A model generated the notes under the pieces. The model saw only the letters and a program-made list of their open reading frames with translations, did no database searches and was not told the origin of the DNA. Positions 4,692 to 19,647 of a stretch of 25,300 bases of DNA are shown one piece after another; within the stretch, counting starts at the first letter, position 1, and every line of letters starts with the position of its first letter. The DNA is from a virus. Location: positions 1 to 25,300 of IMG/VR virus record IMGVR_UViG_3300006802_000508; one strand, 5' to 3'. Made by a program: the position numbers and the translations under genes.

Positions 4692-4945
4692 TAGCAGTTC
4701 CACGCGCGCAGGGACTTGTTGATCCTGCTGTTGGGGTCGTTGGCCGTCTTGGCCGAGGTTAACTTCTTCTTCATGCCCTTCATGCGGGCGCAGAAGCTGT
4801 CGCGGCGCGGGCCGCCTTCCGGCTGCGGAGCCTTGAGGCCGGGCTTGCCAGGGTTGGCCCTATTGTAGGAGGCGCGGCCCTTGGCGTTGAGGCCGCCCGC
4901 TTCGGACTTCCCCTCCTTGCGCTGCCACGCGGGTGTCTTAGCCAT
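4691..4945 (-). CDS. DUF6321-like small basic protein, 84 aa
   Basis: ATG 4945 lies eight bases inside the end of the phosphoesterase gene, with GGAG nine bases upstream. The open frame continues further upstream but loses conservation. The product is a short, highly conserved type: TPAWQRKEGKSEAGGLNAKG, RASYN, LKAPQPEGGPRRDSFCARMKG, MKKKLTSAKTANDPNSRINK, SLRAWNC. I recognise this as the DUF6321 kind of protein found across phages and other viruses or microbes; no activity is established. The many invariant-looking Arg, Lys and Gly residues suggest an RNA- or DNA-binding role. It begins a run of three small basic genes. Confidence 0.82.
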   Translation of the reverse strand: MAKTPAWQRKEGKSEAGGLNAKGRASYNRANPGKPGLKAPQPEGGPRRDSFCARMKGMKKKLTSAKTANDPNSRINKSLRAWNC

Positions 4946-5684
4946 AGGTATGCTCCAGCTTCCGGGTGCTAATGAATTCCCAACCGTCATGCGGGAACCC
5001 CCCGGCCACACCCTTAAGTAGTGTAACCCCGGAAGTCCACATGGCCTGGGCGGGACCAGCATAGCCTTCTTTCTGGTTGGGGTCAAGATAGCAGCCGGCC
5101 ACCAGCCCGAAGAGCTTCTCCCTGCCCTTTCGGATGGCCACGTCCCAGATGTGGGTATGGCCCATGACGCACGAGCGGTACTGCTTCTTGAGGAGAGTGG
5201 CCGCCGGGTACTCCCCGCCCACGCTCTTGCCCATCACCCCCGTCACGAAGTAGTGGGAGGCGGCGAGGCCCCGCACCTGGAACTCCTCAAGGAAGGGCAC
5301 CACCTCCCAGGTGGCCAAAGCCAGGTCGTCGGTGCTAAGGGTACCCCGTAGCTCGGGGACGTTGTCCACCGCCCTATCGATGCGGGCCTCGTGGTTCCCC
5401 ATGAGAAAGACCTTCTTGCCCTTCCACAACCCCAAGGTGAAGAGGGCCTGGTTGGCGGCAGCCATATCGGCGTTGATGGTCCTGCCGTCGAAGCTGCCCT
5501 TCCGCCGCCCGTTGCCCGTGAGGGCGCTGCCGTCATAGGAGGAGAGGGAGGGCATATCGGCCAAGTCCCCCAGGCACAGGAGCATATCCGGCTGGGTATC
5601 CTTGAGGTACTTGAGGAGCCACTCGAACCGGCGGTTATTGACTCCGGGGCGCGCGTGGGAATCCGGGAGGATGAGGACGTTCAC
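4938..5684 (-). CDS. Calcineurin-like metallophosphoesterase
   Basis: The 248-residue product has the full dinuclear-metal signature in order: LPDSH (Asp8, His10), CLGDLAD (39-43), LMGNHEARI (GNHE 96-99), ASHYF (His144) and VMGHTH (175-178). It hydrolyses a phosphoester; candidates are a phosphorylated protein, nucleotide, nucleic acid or sugar phosphate. The start is GTG 5684, overlapping the upstream TGA, with GAGGAGAT a few bases upstream. It directly follows two sugar-transfer genes in one coupled unit, so a part in the same modification pathway is plausible. Phage phosphoesterases of this fold also act as lambda-type protein phosphatases or in DNA metabolism. The fold call is secure; the substrate is unknown. 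Confidence 0.9.
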   Translation of the reverse strand: MNVLILPDSHARPGVNNRRFEWLLKYLKDTQPDMLLCLGDLADMPSLSSYDGSALTGNGRRKGSFDGRTINADMAAANQALFTLGLWKGKKVFLMGNHEARIDRAVDNVPELRGTLSTDDLALATWEVVPFLEEFQVRGLAASHYFVTGVMGKSVGGEYPAATLLKKQYRSCVMGHTHIWDVAIRKGREKLFGLVAGCYLDPNQKEGYAGPAQAMWTSGVTLLKGVAGGFPHDGWEFISTRKLEHTYG

Positions 5685-7852
5685 TTGAAGATCTCCTCAA
5701 GGGTCGGAAGCTCCTGCTTCTTGTCGCCCAGGATGAGCTTCCAGATGGTGGGGCCCACGCCCTCCCCGTGGCAGTAGATGCGCATGCCCATCTCCGCCGC
5801 ATGCTCGAAGAAGTACTGGGCGTCCTGTGAGGCGGCAATCAACTCCCCCGTGCTCCAGAACTTCTTGCCCGTCTGCCCGATGGAAATCTCCATGTACTTG
5901 GGGCGACCCTGCTCATCCTTGGCCGTCTTGTCAATTTGGCCCTCGGGGTAGCAGAAGTCGAATCCGAAGAGGTGGAACTCGCTATACCCCAGGGAGAGGC
6001 TCAGGGACATTGCCCGCCACGCCGCGCAGGTGCCGCCGTTGACGAGGAGGGAACCCGGCGGGAACACCTCGCTCTTCAGCAGCGCCTGCGTCATGGCGTG
6101 CCAGCCCCACACATTCTTGGTGCGCGCCATCACGTGCCGCGTGACGGAGGGGTCGGACATCGAAGCCACCAGCACCTTCGTGGTGGGCGGGATGTCCTCA
6201 AGGAGGTCGGTGCGCTTGATGCCGTGAGTGGAGATGCCATCGACGGGGCGCGGATCCAGCAGCACGAGGTAGTGGGGGTCGATGCCCCAGCCCAGCACCG
6301 TGGGCAGCGAGTGCTTCACCACCGCCACGTCGGCACCCTCCCGCCACATCTTGAGGATCTTGTCCTTCCTCTTGTGGATGTCGGGGCCCGCCGACACAAT
6401 CACCAGCTTGCGGGAGTGGGGCCGCGCCTTGGTGACCCACCGGGAGAGCAACTCCATGTTCTCCTTGACGTTGCTGATGATGTGGTCCTTGGGCATGCAA
6501 TCCTGCGCCGTGACCTTGAGGGGCACACCCCCCATGCCCGCCCCCGGAAGATCGGGGAGGCCCTCGCCCACCGCCGCGATCTGGACGATGCCACCCCCTG
6601 ACACCCTATCCTTGCTCTTGTAGACGCGCTTCTCCCGGAGGATGCGGGTGAAGGTGGCCTCCACCCCCCTGAATTCGGCAGCGGGCATCCCGCCCTCGGG
6701 GTCCGCCACGTAGTAGTCGTCGAAGACCACCACGGGAATGCGCTTGCACATCTCCCAATCATGTGCGATGGTATCCACCGAGTGGCCCCCGTCGAGCCAC
6801 GCGAATTCCACGCCCGCCACTTCCCGGAGGGTATCCTTGGTGTCCCCCTTCGTGAGGTGGAACTCGAACTTCTTTCCCTTGGCGGCCATCGCCTCCGCGA
6901 ACTCTCCCAACTTCTTGGTTACATCCTCAAGGGAGAAGTGCTTCTTGATGTTGTGTTCCTTGGCGTCGGTATCCGCCGATGCCTCCTCGAAGAGGTCGTA
7001 GCCGTGGTAGACAACGTGGTCGTGTTTCCCAAACGCAACCTGCGCCATCTGCAGGGCCCGGTCACCATTCCATGTGCCGGTCTCCAGCAGGACGCTGGGC
7101 ATGTAGTGCTGGACGAGAGCCAGCAACTGGTCGTAGCGGGTCCTCAGTCCCGGGATAACCTTGGTGTTCTTGCGAGCCCCCTTGAGGTGGGTGAAGACCT
7201 CCTTCAGCGGGCTGTTCTCGAAGGCGTCGAGCCCTACGTAGTCGGGGTCCACGAGGTTGACGGCCTCCAGCCCATGCATCTTGTGCATCTGGAGGACACG
7301 CTCGAAGATGAAGGCGTCAGTCCACTCGCTGTAGTTGAAGATCTCCCCCGTCATGTACATGTCGTACATATCGGCTATGAGGGTGCGCCCCTCATTCCCG
7401 GCGAAGTAGATGAAGCCCGTCTCCGAGTAGTTGATGCCCTTCCTCCCCAGGTGGGTGACGTGCCCCCGGCAGATATCCTGGAGCCACCCCAGGGTGAGGG
7501 GCTTTGTAGTGAGTACATCGCCGTCGAGCCACAGGAAGGGCGCAGGGTCACGAGCCGCATCGTGCAGGGCGAAGACCTTCGCGCAGAACTTCACGGCGTC
7601 CAGACGGTAGTTGTAACCCTCCGGGGTGTTCCCATCCTTGTCCGCGTGGGCCCGCTTGAATTCGTTGAAACCCTCGACTTCCTCAAGGCGCTTGACGACG
7701 AGGGGCCGGTGCTGGCATGAAACCTCGGCGGGGTCCATCCCATCCACGTAGACGGTGAGGGAGATGTTGGAGTCCCACAGGCGAGTGGAGTCCAGGAAGT
7801 TCTTGCCGTAGAGGTCCCAGCCCTTCGGCCCCCAAGAAGTAACGATTCTCAT
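5681..7852 (-). CDS. Three-domain fusion: glycosyltransferase-like, SAM methyltransferase-like and DUF115-like
   Basis: The product has 723 residues. Residues about 1-230 form a GT-A-like glycosyltransferase with FLWLDGDVLTTKPL (DGD at 110-112, a candidate nucleotide-sugar metal site). Residues about 235-430 form a class I methyltransferase of the TylF/CmcI (Methyltransf_24) kind: VLLETGTWNGDRALQMA is the SAM-binding loop, YHGYDLFEE an acidic end of a strand, and LDGGHS (353-358) with VVFDDYY (376-381) a likely metal site. Residues about 480-700 match DUF115/MAF-like proteins: LVIVSAGPDIHKRKDKI, GIDPHYLVLLDPR, NGGTCAAWRAMSLSLSLGY and HLFGFDF. DUF115 proteins are linked to flagellin glycosylation and related sugar transfer. 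The gene overlaps both neighbours by four bases or fewer. It probably makes or attaches a modified sugar; the acceptor is unknown. Confidence 0.85.
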   Translation of the reverse strand: MRIVTSWGPKGWDLYGKNFLDSTRLWDSNISLTVYVDGMDPAEVSCQHRPLVVKRLEEVEGFNEFKRAHADKDGNTPEGYNYRLDAVKFCAKVFALHDAARDPAPFLWLDGDVLTTKPLTLGWLQDICRGHVTHLGRKGINYSETGFIYFAGNEGRTLIADMYDMYMTGEIFNYSEWTDAFIFERVLQMHKMHGLEAVNLVDPDYVGLDAFENSPLKEVFTHLKGARKNTKVIPGLRTRYDQLLALVQHYMPSVLLETGTWNGDRALQMAQVAFGKHDHVVYHGYDLFEEASADTDAKEHNIKKHFSLEDVTKKLGEFAEAMAAKGKKFEFHLTKGDTKDTLREVAGVEFAWLDGGHSVDTIAHDWEMCKRIPVVVFDDYYVADPEGGMPAAEFRGVEATFTRILREKRVYKSKDRVSGGGIVQIAAVGEGLPDLPGAGMGGVPLKVTAQDCMPKDHIISNVKENMELLSRWVTKARPHSRKLVIVSAGPDIHKRKDKILKMWREGADVAVVKHSLPTVLGWGIDPHYLVLLDPRPVDGISTHGIKRTDLLEDIPPTTKVLVASMSDPSVTRHVMARTKNVWGWHAMTQALLKSEVFPPGSLLVNGGTCAAWRAMSLSLSLGYSEFHLFGFDFCYPEGQIDKTAKDEQGRPKYMEISIGQTGKKFWSTGELIAASQDAQYFFEHAAEMGMRIYCHGEGVGPTIWKLILGDKKQELPTLEEIFK

Positions 7853-8610
7853 CGGAAGAGGTCCACCTTATGGTTCCAGTTGTAGAACTCGTGTTCAACC
7901 AGCGCCTTCTCCGCATTCCATGCGGCAGCGTAGGGAACGTCCTTGTAGTTGGGGAACCACGGTCCCCCGTCAGTGAAGTGGATGGCCTTCGGGCTCTCGT
8001 AAGAGTAGCGCGTGGTGGGACTGTGATATGGAAGCCAGTTCCAAGTCTCGTCGATCTCCCCTATGGAATCCGTCCACTCGAAACCGTGCAGCCACGACCC
8101 CTTCTGGGTGTTGACCGCTTCGAGGTCCAGCTTCCGGCAATGGGGGTGCAGGGGATTCAGAACCATGAGGGAGGACCACAGCTTGCGGTGGTACTGCTGC
8201 TGCGCCACCCCGTCCATCTTGACGGCTTCTTTGGGACGAAACTTGTGTTGCACCACCGAGACTGCCCGCTCGGGATCGCAGAATTGGAGCATCTTTGCGA
8301 TGTCCTCGAAGAAGAGGAAGTCGCAATCCACGAAGACCACAAGGTCCTCGATGCCATTTTGGCGGGCCAGGTGGGGCACGAGGAAGCGCGAAAAAGAGAA
8401 CTCCGTGGAGAACGGCTTGCCGTCCCCCATGTCGATCATCTGATTGCCTTCCCGGTAGAGTGTGCGCCAGTACTTCCCTGCAGCCTTCAGGGAGTCCAGC
8501 TTGAGCGGGGTGATGACGCAGGGAACGCTACAATGCCGCTTGATGCTATGCGCGGCTACCTTGTAGGCGATGTCCTCCCTAGAGTCATAGCCAATGAAGA
8601 TGTGCAGCAT
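7849..8610 (-). CDS. GT8-like glycosyltransferase
   Basis: The 253-residue product starts LHIFIGYDSREDIAYKVAAH, a typical GT-A start with a conserved Asp after the first strand and a helix that reaches a substrate site. LVVFVDCDFLFFEDI holds the DxD-type metal and nucleotide-sugar motif (Asp95-Cys-Asp97), and KAIHFTDGGPWF near residue 211 corresponds to the third GT8 motif (HY/F..G...PW). It should move a sugar from a nucleotide sugar to an unknown acceptor. It is the first gene after the 41-base spacer with the palindrome and is coupled (ATGA) to the three-domain fusion, so the two probably act on the same glycan. No strong ribosome-binding site precedes ATG 8610. Confidence 0.87.
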   Translation of the reverse strand: MLHIFIGYDSREDIAYKVAAHSIKRHCSVPCVITPLKLDSLKAAGKYWRTLYREGNQMIDMGDGKPFSTEFSFSRFLVPHLARQNGIEDLVVFVDCDFLFFEDIAKMLQFCDPERAVSVVQHKFRPKEAVKMDGVAQQQYHRKLWSSLMVLNPLHPHCRKLDLEAVNTQKGSWLHGFEWTDSIGEIDETWNWLPYHSPTTRYSYESPKAIHFTDGGPWFPNYKDVPYAAAWNAEKALVEHEFYNWNHKVDLFR

Positions 8611-18256: not shown

Positions 18257-19210
18257 TTAGAATCCAGGCAAGCCGAGTGCCGTGGGGCTCATGCGGCTGG
18301 CCCAATTGGAAGCAAGACCTGAAGGCGAGCCACCGTACCCCATGAGGTTGTAGATGCTGGCACCAGTGAGGCCGAGGCCTGCAGCAGTCTGCAGCGGGGA
18401 CATCTGGGGGATGAGGGTCTGCCCCTGCGTCGTGGTGGTGGCACCCGGCTGCGCCCCCCGGAGGAGACTCCCGAGTTGACCAAGCTGGCCCATCCCATAC
18501 TGCTGGCCCCGCAGGTACTCCTGGAAGGCGAGGTCACGCTGCTGCTGCTCCAACTGGCGCGGGAGAGCCTGGCTCTTCATGATGGCATCTAGGCCACCCA
18601 GACCCAACTGCTGCGCCTGCGCGCCCATCTGGGAGAAGAGAGGGGCCGCCTGCAACTGCCGCTGGGCTTCCTGCTGCGCGAGGGCGGTACCGGAGGTGAA
18701 GGCCCGCTCTTGCCCCGTCTGCTGGATATCCGCGAGGCGCTGCCCCAGATTCCTTTCAGCTTCGGCTTCTTGCACACCGTAGCGCGCCCCGCCGAAGGCA
18801 CCCTGCCTGCTGGCCTGGAAGCCCCTCTGGGGCCGCATCTTCTCGTAGTCCCGCACGGCCTCGCGCTTGGCGATATCGGTGACGTACTGAGTGTAGGGGT
18901 TCATGTACTGGGAGTAGTCGATATCGCCCACCCCCCGCGAGCCCAATGCGGCACTTTCAAAGCCGGCGGCCAGCCCTGGCATGTAGGCCCCTGCGGCCTG
19001 GGGGGCTGCTCCAATGGCCTGCTGCTCCGTGGCGCTAAGTGGGGCAATGCGCTGCGACGGGTCGTAATACTCGTAGGGGGTGGCCCTCACCTCGGCTTCG
19101 CCGGCCTCGACGATCCGCTTGAGAGCATCCTCGTACCACGATGGGAACTGCGACGACTGAACGGTCGTAGTGGGCTGCGTCGAGGTGCTGGACTTGCAAA
19201 GGAAACCCAT
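18257..19210 (-). CDS. Internal virion / injection-type protein, 317 aa
   Basis: The product has a Ser/Thr-rich start (SSTSTQPTTTVQSSQFPSWY). It then has a conserved-looking core, SQYMNPYTQYVTDIAKREAV, followed by RQGAFGGARYGVQEAEAERN, and a Gln/Ala/Gly-rich remainder (QAAPLFSQMGAQAQQLGLGG). The combination MNPYTQ..V followed by GAFGG.R...E recurs in many podophage and related virion proteins thought to be carried with the DNA or in the tail; exact function is not known. There are no cysteines apart from Cys5 and no enzyme motif. ATG 19210 overlaps the GNAT stop (TGATG). Confidence 0.78.
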   Translation of the reverse strand: MGFLCKSSTSTQPTTTVQSSQFPSWYEDALKRIVEAGEAEVRATPYEYYDPSQRIAPLSATEQQAIGAAPQAAGAYMPGLAAGFESAALGSRGVGDIDYSQYMNPYTQYVTDIAKREAVRDYEKMRPQRGFQASRQGAFGGARYGVQEAEAERNLGQRLADIQQTGQERAFTSGTALAQQEAQRQLQAAPLFSQMGAQAQQLGLGGLDAIMKSQALPRQLEQQQRDLAFQEYLRGQQYGMGQLGQLGSLLRGAQPGATTTTQGQTLIPQMSPLQTAAGLGLTGASIYNLMGYGGSPSGLASNWASRMSPTALGLPGF

Positions 19211-19647
19211 CAGAAACCCCTTGAGTAGACGCCGCCCACGCGGGTAAATCCGTGGCGCTCATAGAAGGCATCTTTGCGCACCACGTCCTCCCCATGCACC
19301 ACTGCCATTAGGAGGGGGAGTTCCCTCATAGTAGCATATTCGAGGGCAGCGCGCAACAGGTGGGAAGCGATGCGTGAGGTGCGCGCACACGGGGCAACAT
19401 AGAAGACGAGATCCCCCAGGAACTTCCCGTGGGAGTACCAATGTTCTCCCTCCTGGAGGGCGAGGACACCCGCGAGCCTATCCCCCTTGTGGGCAAGGAA
19501 GATGCGGCCCCCCTGCAGGCAATCCCCGAGGGCAGCTTCAACCTTGTGCGGGGCAATGGGAGGCAGCCCCACGGGTGCCCCCGCATGCATCTCCACGAGG
19601 AGGGCCCCGATGGCGGGGATGTCCCCCTCCTTAGCGACCCTTATCAT
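19210..19647 (-). CDS. GNAT-family N-acetyltransferase
   Basis: The 145-residue product begins IRVAKEGDIPAIGALLVEMH (GNAT strand 1 and helix 1). It continues with GRIFLAHKGDRLAGVLALQE (strands 2-3), FLGDLVFYVAPCARTSRIAS (strand 4 and acetyl-CoA loop), HLLRAALEYATMRELPLLMA (helix 3, strand 5) and DAFYERHGFTRVGGVYSRGF. The acetyl-CoA loop is ARTSRIA, so the first Gly of the usual R/Q-x-x-G-x-G/A is Arg, a variant often met in phage GNATs. It moves an acetyl group from acetyl-CoA to an amine; the target is unknown. Its position between virion genes suggests a target in virion assembly or a host protein. ATG 19647 lies 17 bases inside the previous gene. Confidence 0.88.
   Translation of the reverse strand: MIRVAKEGDIPAIGALLVEMHAGAPVGLPPIAPHKVEAALGDCLQGGRIFLAHKGDRLAGVLALQEGEHWYSHGKFLGDLVFYVAPCARTSRIASHLLRAALEYATMRELPLLMAVVHGEDVVRKDAFYERHGFTRVGGVYSRGF

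Follow-up and report, generated by a model that had tools for sequence, protein, structure and literature searches.

A family of phage proteins in which predicted glycosyltransferase, O-methyltransferase and DUF115 modules are fused: a candidate glycan-assembly enzyme

Chlorella virus PBCV-1 encodes its own sugar-nucleotide enzymes, and multi-transferase proteins that build and cap the virus's own glycan, A064R and A111/114R, are known from it. A064R (638 aa) has three modules, each of about 200 aa; two are rhamnosyltransferases and one is a 2-O-methyltransferase, and they act sequentially on the capsid N-glycan (PMC9614988). Among phages, mycobacteriophages attach glycans to the proteins of their own capsids and tails (PMC12363180). 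The DUF115 fold (PF01973) is found in the Maf flagellin glycosyltransferases (5mu5), whose central domain has been likened to the sialyltransferase Cst-II (PMC11339370), and in the archaeal 6-hydroxymethyl-dihydropterin pyrophosphokinase (HPPK) MptE (8sd5), a stand-alone protein of about 240 aa.

The DNA analysed here (the window) is a 25.3-kb virus record of IMG/VR. The gene under study occupies positions 5681-7852 on the minus strand, the strand having been left unstated in the preliminary description, and is an open frame of 723 aa with an ATG start and a TGA stop. By structure prediction and sequence matches it encodes three confident modules on this strand: a GT-A glycosyltransferase (GT; residues 1-224, positions 7181-7852), a TylF/COMT-like SAM-dependent O-methyltransferase (MT; residues 237-432, positions 6557-7144) and an MptE-like/DUF115 module (residues 450-716, positions 5705-6505). 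The claim that three domains are joined in one 723-residue phage protein was borne out by Pfam matches, by AlphaFold2 modules and by the recurrence of the fusion in many further viruses; the motifs quoted with it (W108-LDGD-112, E257-TGTWNGD and D354-GGHS) were found, and vary little or not at all among sequences of 38-88% identity.

The structure was modelled with AlphaFold2 from an alignment of 32 diverse relatives, in all 32 of which both MptE-like/DUF115 and Methyltransf_24 were matched (E<=0.1). Mean pLDDT was 87, and values below 50 occurred only at residues 225-236 and 439-442, the two module junctions. The pTM of the full model was 0.45, so the relative placement of the modules is not fixed by it. 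A Foldseek search of the whole model against the PDB returned Maf (5mu5), GT6 galactosyltransferases, ABO enzymes, O-methyltransferases (TomG, COMT) and archaeal HPPK. The structure prediction, which had been proposed as a check, thus showed three folds, and the predicted active-site residues are intact in the window protein.

A search for the fusion in other viruses, likewise proposed there, was performed with domain HMMs on every frame of fetched loci. A single GT-MT-DUF115 frame was found in 221 loci, corresponding to 154 distinct sequences from many metagenomes, nearly all in IMG/VR; the loci were drawn from best-hit lists, and proportions among them do not represent population frequencies. 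Patterns made from the window protein by itself gave 32 loci at 61-100% identity, an alignment-based search added relatives at 37-43% identity, and DUF115-only and GT-only scans each gave more than 530 relatives among the matches listed. No match was obtained in a first scan of genome contigs with close relatives, nor in a DUF115 search among cultured phages. Judged from these sequences, the phages that carry the fusion are uncultured aquatic ones and form a large group. An entry of 714 aa from an uncultured Caudovirales phage (UniProt A0A6J7X5Q0), labelled only 'methyltransferase domain containing protein', is by its 33% identity over the whole length a family member already deposited. Individual members of the GT-MT-DUF115 family have been deposited previously; no description of the architecture was found in the open-access literature on phage DUF115/MptE-like glycosyltransferases, most subscription journals lying outside the scope of that search.

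A fusion created by chance or by mis-assembly, its middle part decayed, would accord with the broken or missing methyltransferase of some relatives. It was rejected on the 154 distinct intact homologues and is considered extremely improbable: the glycosyltransferases of the fused proteins form a single clade (support 99/97), and sequence comparison indicates that each of the three modules is under purifying selection, with median dN/dS of 0.157 for GT, 0.187 for MT and 0.181 for DUF115 (NG86, simple pairwise, non-independent pairs). Neither the middle nor the last part is the unrelated filler considered in the preliminary description, nor have the relatives as a whole lost their catalytic residues. 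The three-domain arrangement is real and conserved.

Other arrangements of the same modules were also observed. Split pairs consist of GT and MT-DUF115 (L089) or of GT-MT and DUF115 (L239); part of the GT-MT and MT-DUF115 entries are fragments at contig ends. Whether fused, split or permuted, the methyltransferases constitute one clade (100/100), separate from other bacterial ones. The permuted form was seen in two alphaproteobacterial MAG proteins of about 498 aa (L091, 1396-2895; L092, 8001-9497), which show the reverse order MT-GT, lack DUF115 and use the same MT and GT families as the fusion. A bacterial origin of the whole fusion was considered and rejected: the two full-length matches in genome contigs, from a Sneathiella MAG (L088) and a Myxococcales MAG (L089), sit amid phage-type genes, and that of L089 is split.

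No family match to residues 1-234 was found in Pfam, PHROG or NCBIfam; at 28% identity they match proteins that stand alone in Pelagibacter phage Mosig and Podoviridae ct7QV12. On the predicted fold, Foldseek matched module 1 to GT6 alpha-1,3-galactosyltransferase/ABO enzymes (local E about 1e-5) and to GlyE, and the DxD motif and metal-binding His of the GT-A fold are both present. D110, D112, D179 and H222 are conserved. The predicted DxD metal/donor motif W108-L-D-G-D112 (7517-7531, minus strand) has Asp in 150 of the 152 residues present at each site, and H222 (7187-7189, minus strand; H-x-K-G motif), the predicted third metal ligand, is invariant in stand-alone relatives too. D110, D112 and H222 are lost jointly in two sequences, L088 and L230, as expected for a metal site. 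These two proteins (L088, 7992-10337; L230, 6-2357) are full-length and carry D110N, D112N and H222N together with a lost methyltransferase site and an intact DUF115.

Module 3 matched PF01973 at residues 457-637 (E=1.6e-15, 57.8 bits against a cut-off of 34.6). Its core motif L531-LDPR535 is located at 6248-6262 on the minus strand; K513, H514, D533, R535 and H543 are invariant in 154/154 distinct fusions, as is G489. Modelled alone, the module reached a pLDDT of 91 and a pTM of 0.89. The Pfam name would suggest an MptE-like pyrophosphokinase or another non-glycosyl domain, with sugar transfer by module 1 only; the archaeal HPPK 8sd5, which shares family and fold with module 3, was matched by Foldseek at TMt 0.67, nearly equal to Maf, with a weak sequence match in addition. 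The best match in both structure and sequence profile was nevertheless the Maf glycosyltransferase (5mu5, E=5.4e-8, prob 1.00; profile E=0.0013), a sialyltransferase (human ST8SiaIII, E=2.7e-3) stood lower in the Foldseek list, sugar-nucleotide genes co-occur, and no pterin context is visible at the locus. The pyrophosphokinase reading is accordingly held to be improbable. DUF115, the invariant part of the protein, is more probably itself a transferase than a 'cap'. The Maf N-terminal Rossmann-like and C-terminal helical domains were not detected in the fusion protein (Pfam up to E=1), and DUF115 is joined here to GT-A and methyltransferase modules, in which respects the protein differs from Maf in spite of the common fold. 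A nonulosonate donor as in Maf was tried and rejected, as NeuB (PF03102) of nonulosonate synthesis was found in 0/13 records; NeuB was the one gene sought, and the donor could be the host's.

Module 2 matched Methyltransf_24 at residues 256-380 (E=4.2e-6, 28 bits against a cut-off of 26.3) and, by profile, 5i10/4cdz (about 2.5e-4) and the sugar 3''-O-methyltransferase MycF (2.4e-3). The SAM motif and D...DD site of metal-dependent class I O-methyltransferases are both present, D354, D378 and D379 aligning with 5i10/4cdz. SAM motif I (E257-TGTWNG263; 7064-7084, minus strand) has E257 and G259 in 154/154 sequences. The predicted metal/catalytic site D354-GGHS358 lies at 6779-6793 and F377-DDYY381, with the predicted second and third metal ligands D378 and D379, at 6710-6724 (both minus strand), the latter aligned with VIIDDYF of 5i10/4cdz. 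SAM motif, predicted D...DD site and MycF match are shared with TylF/MycF/CmcI and COMT, from which the module differs in being embedded between two transferase-type domains.

D354, H357 and D379 are intact in the window protein and are lost together in a large subclade. At least one of D354, H357, D378 and D379 is altered in 35/154 distinct fusions, about a quarter of the sample, mostly as joint D354G+H357N/D+D379N/H with SAM motif I retained; the joint loss is as expected for a metal site. On a quick tree (92 rows, methyltransferase columns excluded) the losses fall in one clade of 18 and three single lineages, with two separate deletions besides. The module is absent from two distinct GT-DUF115 sequences, L202 and L238. 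L238 groups (100/100) with a protein that has all three domains, and its own methyltransferase was therefore probably deleted. Set against the invariant DUF115, these losses argue for the methyltransferase as a removable cap module and DUF115 as the constant core. The proposal that sugar is added, methylated and capped in one step has to be modified, since the modules are separate and the methyltransferase is dispensable; 'in one polypeptide' is the apt wording.

The fusion overlaps its neighbours by 4 bases at both ends, an arrangement as in a translationally coupled operon. At the 3' end (5681-5684) its stop is overlapped by a calcineurin-like metallophosphoesterase gene (4938-5684, minus strand), which adjoins the fusion only in close relatives and in L036; in distant relatives the neighbours, as read from the sequences, are different, namely ribonucleotide reductase and terminase-small-subunit-like genes. 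At the 5' end (7849-7852) its start is overlapped by a companion GT-A-like glycosyltransferase gene (P0002, phrog_28018; 7849-8610, minus strand), relatives of which are annotated as nucleotide-diphospho-sugar transferases. A companion homologue was found upstream of the fusion in 78/78 loci with room for it (69 directly adjacent by ORF calls, 7 by tblastn, L064 with one ORF between, and L089 in the split form). In the cultured Pelagibacter phage Mosig the same two glycosyltransferases adjoin each other, surrounded by two FkbM-type methyltransferases, another glycosyltransferase and a putative sulfotransferase. Mosig is the closest cultured phage to have this glycosyltransferase pair, and a DUF115 match was not found in the part of its genome that was inspected. 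In one distant group a PKHD-type 2OG-Fe(II) dioxygenase and an HSP20-like small heat shock gene lie regularly just 5' of the companion (L044, 4108-5189, and similar loci).

GDP-mannose 4,6-dehydratase was found in 16/24 virus records and in 9/9 records of at least 48 kb, counts that are not independent because the phages are related. The enzyme is rare in phages generally (88/50,697 phage records, E<=1e-20). One SDR enzyme was found per genome, its gene often distant from the fusion; the L085 copy exceeds the NCBIfam gmd equivalog cut-off, and that in the record of a 98% identical relative falls slightly below it (372.7 against 415 bits). DegT/DnrJ-type (sugar-type) aminotransferases occur in five virus records. 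In L085 a downstream pair (5999-8199) of adjacent dehydratase and DegT-type aminotransferase genes resembles a GDP-perosamine cassette. The companion glycosyltransferase and the GDP-sugar enzyme encoded in these genomes suggest that a glycan is assembled in several steps.

DNA is a possible substrate of phage glycosyltransferases, and decoration of modified bases in the phage genome was considered on this ground. It was rejected and is regarded as very improbable: a thymidylate-synthase-fold base hydroxymethylase was found in 0/12 records, and no DNA-modification genes were noticed among the neighbours.

The explanation favoured, with slightly better than even confidence, is a phage multidomain glycan-assembly enzyme with GT-A and DUF115 transferases, an optional methyl cap, a GDP-derived deoxyhexose and a probable virion-protein acceptor; domains, predicted folds, conservation and co-occurrence are what we show, and donor, acceptor, reaction order and DUF115 chemistry are what we infer here. 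Module 1 would act as a metal-dependent GT-A glycosyltransferase in partnership with the GT-A protein encoded directly upstream, and module 3 as an indispensable Maf/Cst-II-like transferase core. The donor would probably be a 6-deoxy-hexose that the GDP-mannose 4,6-dehydratase of the phage itself would produce from GDP-mannose. In lineages retaining module 2, this metal-dependent O-methyltransferase would methyl-cap the product. The tethered modules may react sequentially, as in PBCV-1 A064R, first building a short glycan and then terminating it; its carrier would most likely be a virion protein.

In the window the fusion is flanked by ejection-type/virion genes and holin/endolysin genes, a placement that makes late expression probable. 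Solely from this position between ejection-type and lysis genes is a virion protein taken as the most likely acceptor. Sugar O-methylation is known from bacterial surface glycans, and the main rival assigns the same chemistry to the host envelope, with LPS or capsule remodelled during infection, e.g. to prevent superinfection or to keep progeny from being reabsorbed. Such a role is the usual reading for cyanophages that carry GDP-mannose 4,6-dehydratase together with glycosyltransferases (PMC9602691), and the permuted MT-GT fusion occurs in ordinary bacterial contigs. However, no O-antigen polymerase or flippase was noticed among the neighbours, and the location amid late structural and lysis genes would be late for exclusion; we consider a host-envelope acceptor possible, though rather unlikely. 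A more specific scheme, a 'phage Maf', is put forward tentatively and with similarly low confidence: DUF115 would prime a structural protein as a GDP-sugar-dependent O-glycosyltransferase, the two GT-A proteins would extend the glycan, and the methyltransferase would end it. If true, abundant aquatic phages would possess a self-contained methylated-glycan coat system.

The A064R precedent, together with phage self-glycosylation, leads us to read the fusion as an enzyme that builds a glycan step by step and can, as an option, close it with a methyl group. Both proteins are viral and consist of three transferase modules, each about 200 aa long and the first of them GT-A, with a methyltransferase that caps the glycan in A064R and is proposed to do so in the phage protein. 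They differ in order, which is GT-GT-MT with the methyltransferase last in A064R and GT-MT-DUF115 with a central methyltransferase in the fusion; moreover, the second glycosyltransferase of A064R is not DUF115, and A064R belongs to a eukaryotic virus whereas the fusion comes from phages. Homology was considered and rejected, the best GT profile match (2p6w, A064R domain 1) being non-significant (E=0.55), and the best reading is one of apparent analogy, homology not being demonstrable. To judge from this family, a large group of tailed phages seems to have reached an A064R-like solution with different parts and a sugar-nucleotide enzyme of its own. It offers a candidate function for a DUF115 branch that bears the name of an archaeal pterin enzyme, and its natural variants, in which the methyltransferase is inactivated, deleted, split off or permuted, provide existing controls for telling the roles of the modules apart.

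Two further features of the window were recorded. A GNAT acetyltransferase gene is located at 19210-19647 on the minus strand, amid late structural genes. At about 22-900 on the plus strand, DNA polymerase A carries an intein-like insert with the borders AKRAAHG|CLTSDHEVLTPSGW...KIMVTGN|SNYGGSAYT; the relative L008 has the uninterrupted sequence KRAAHGSNYGGSAYT at this site.
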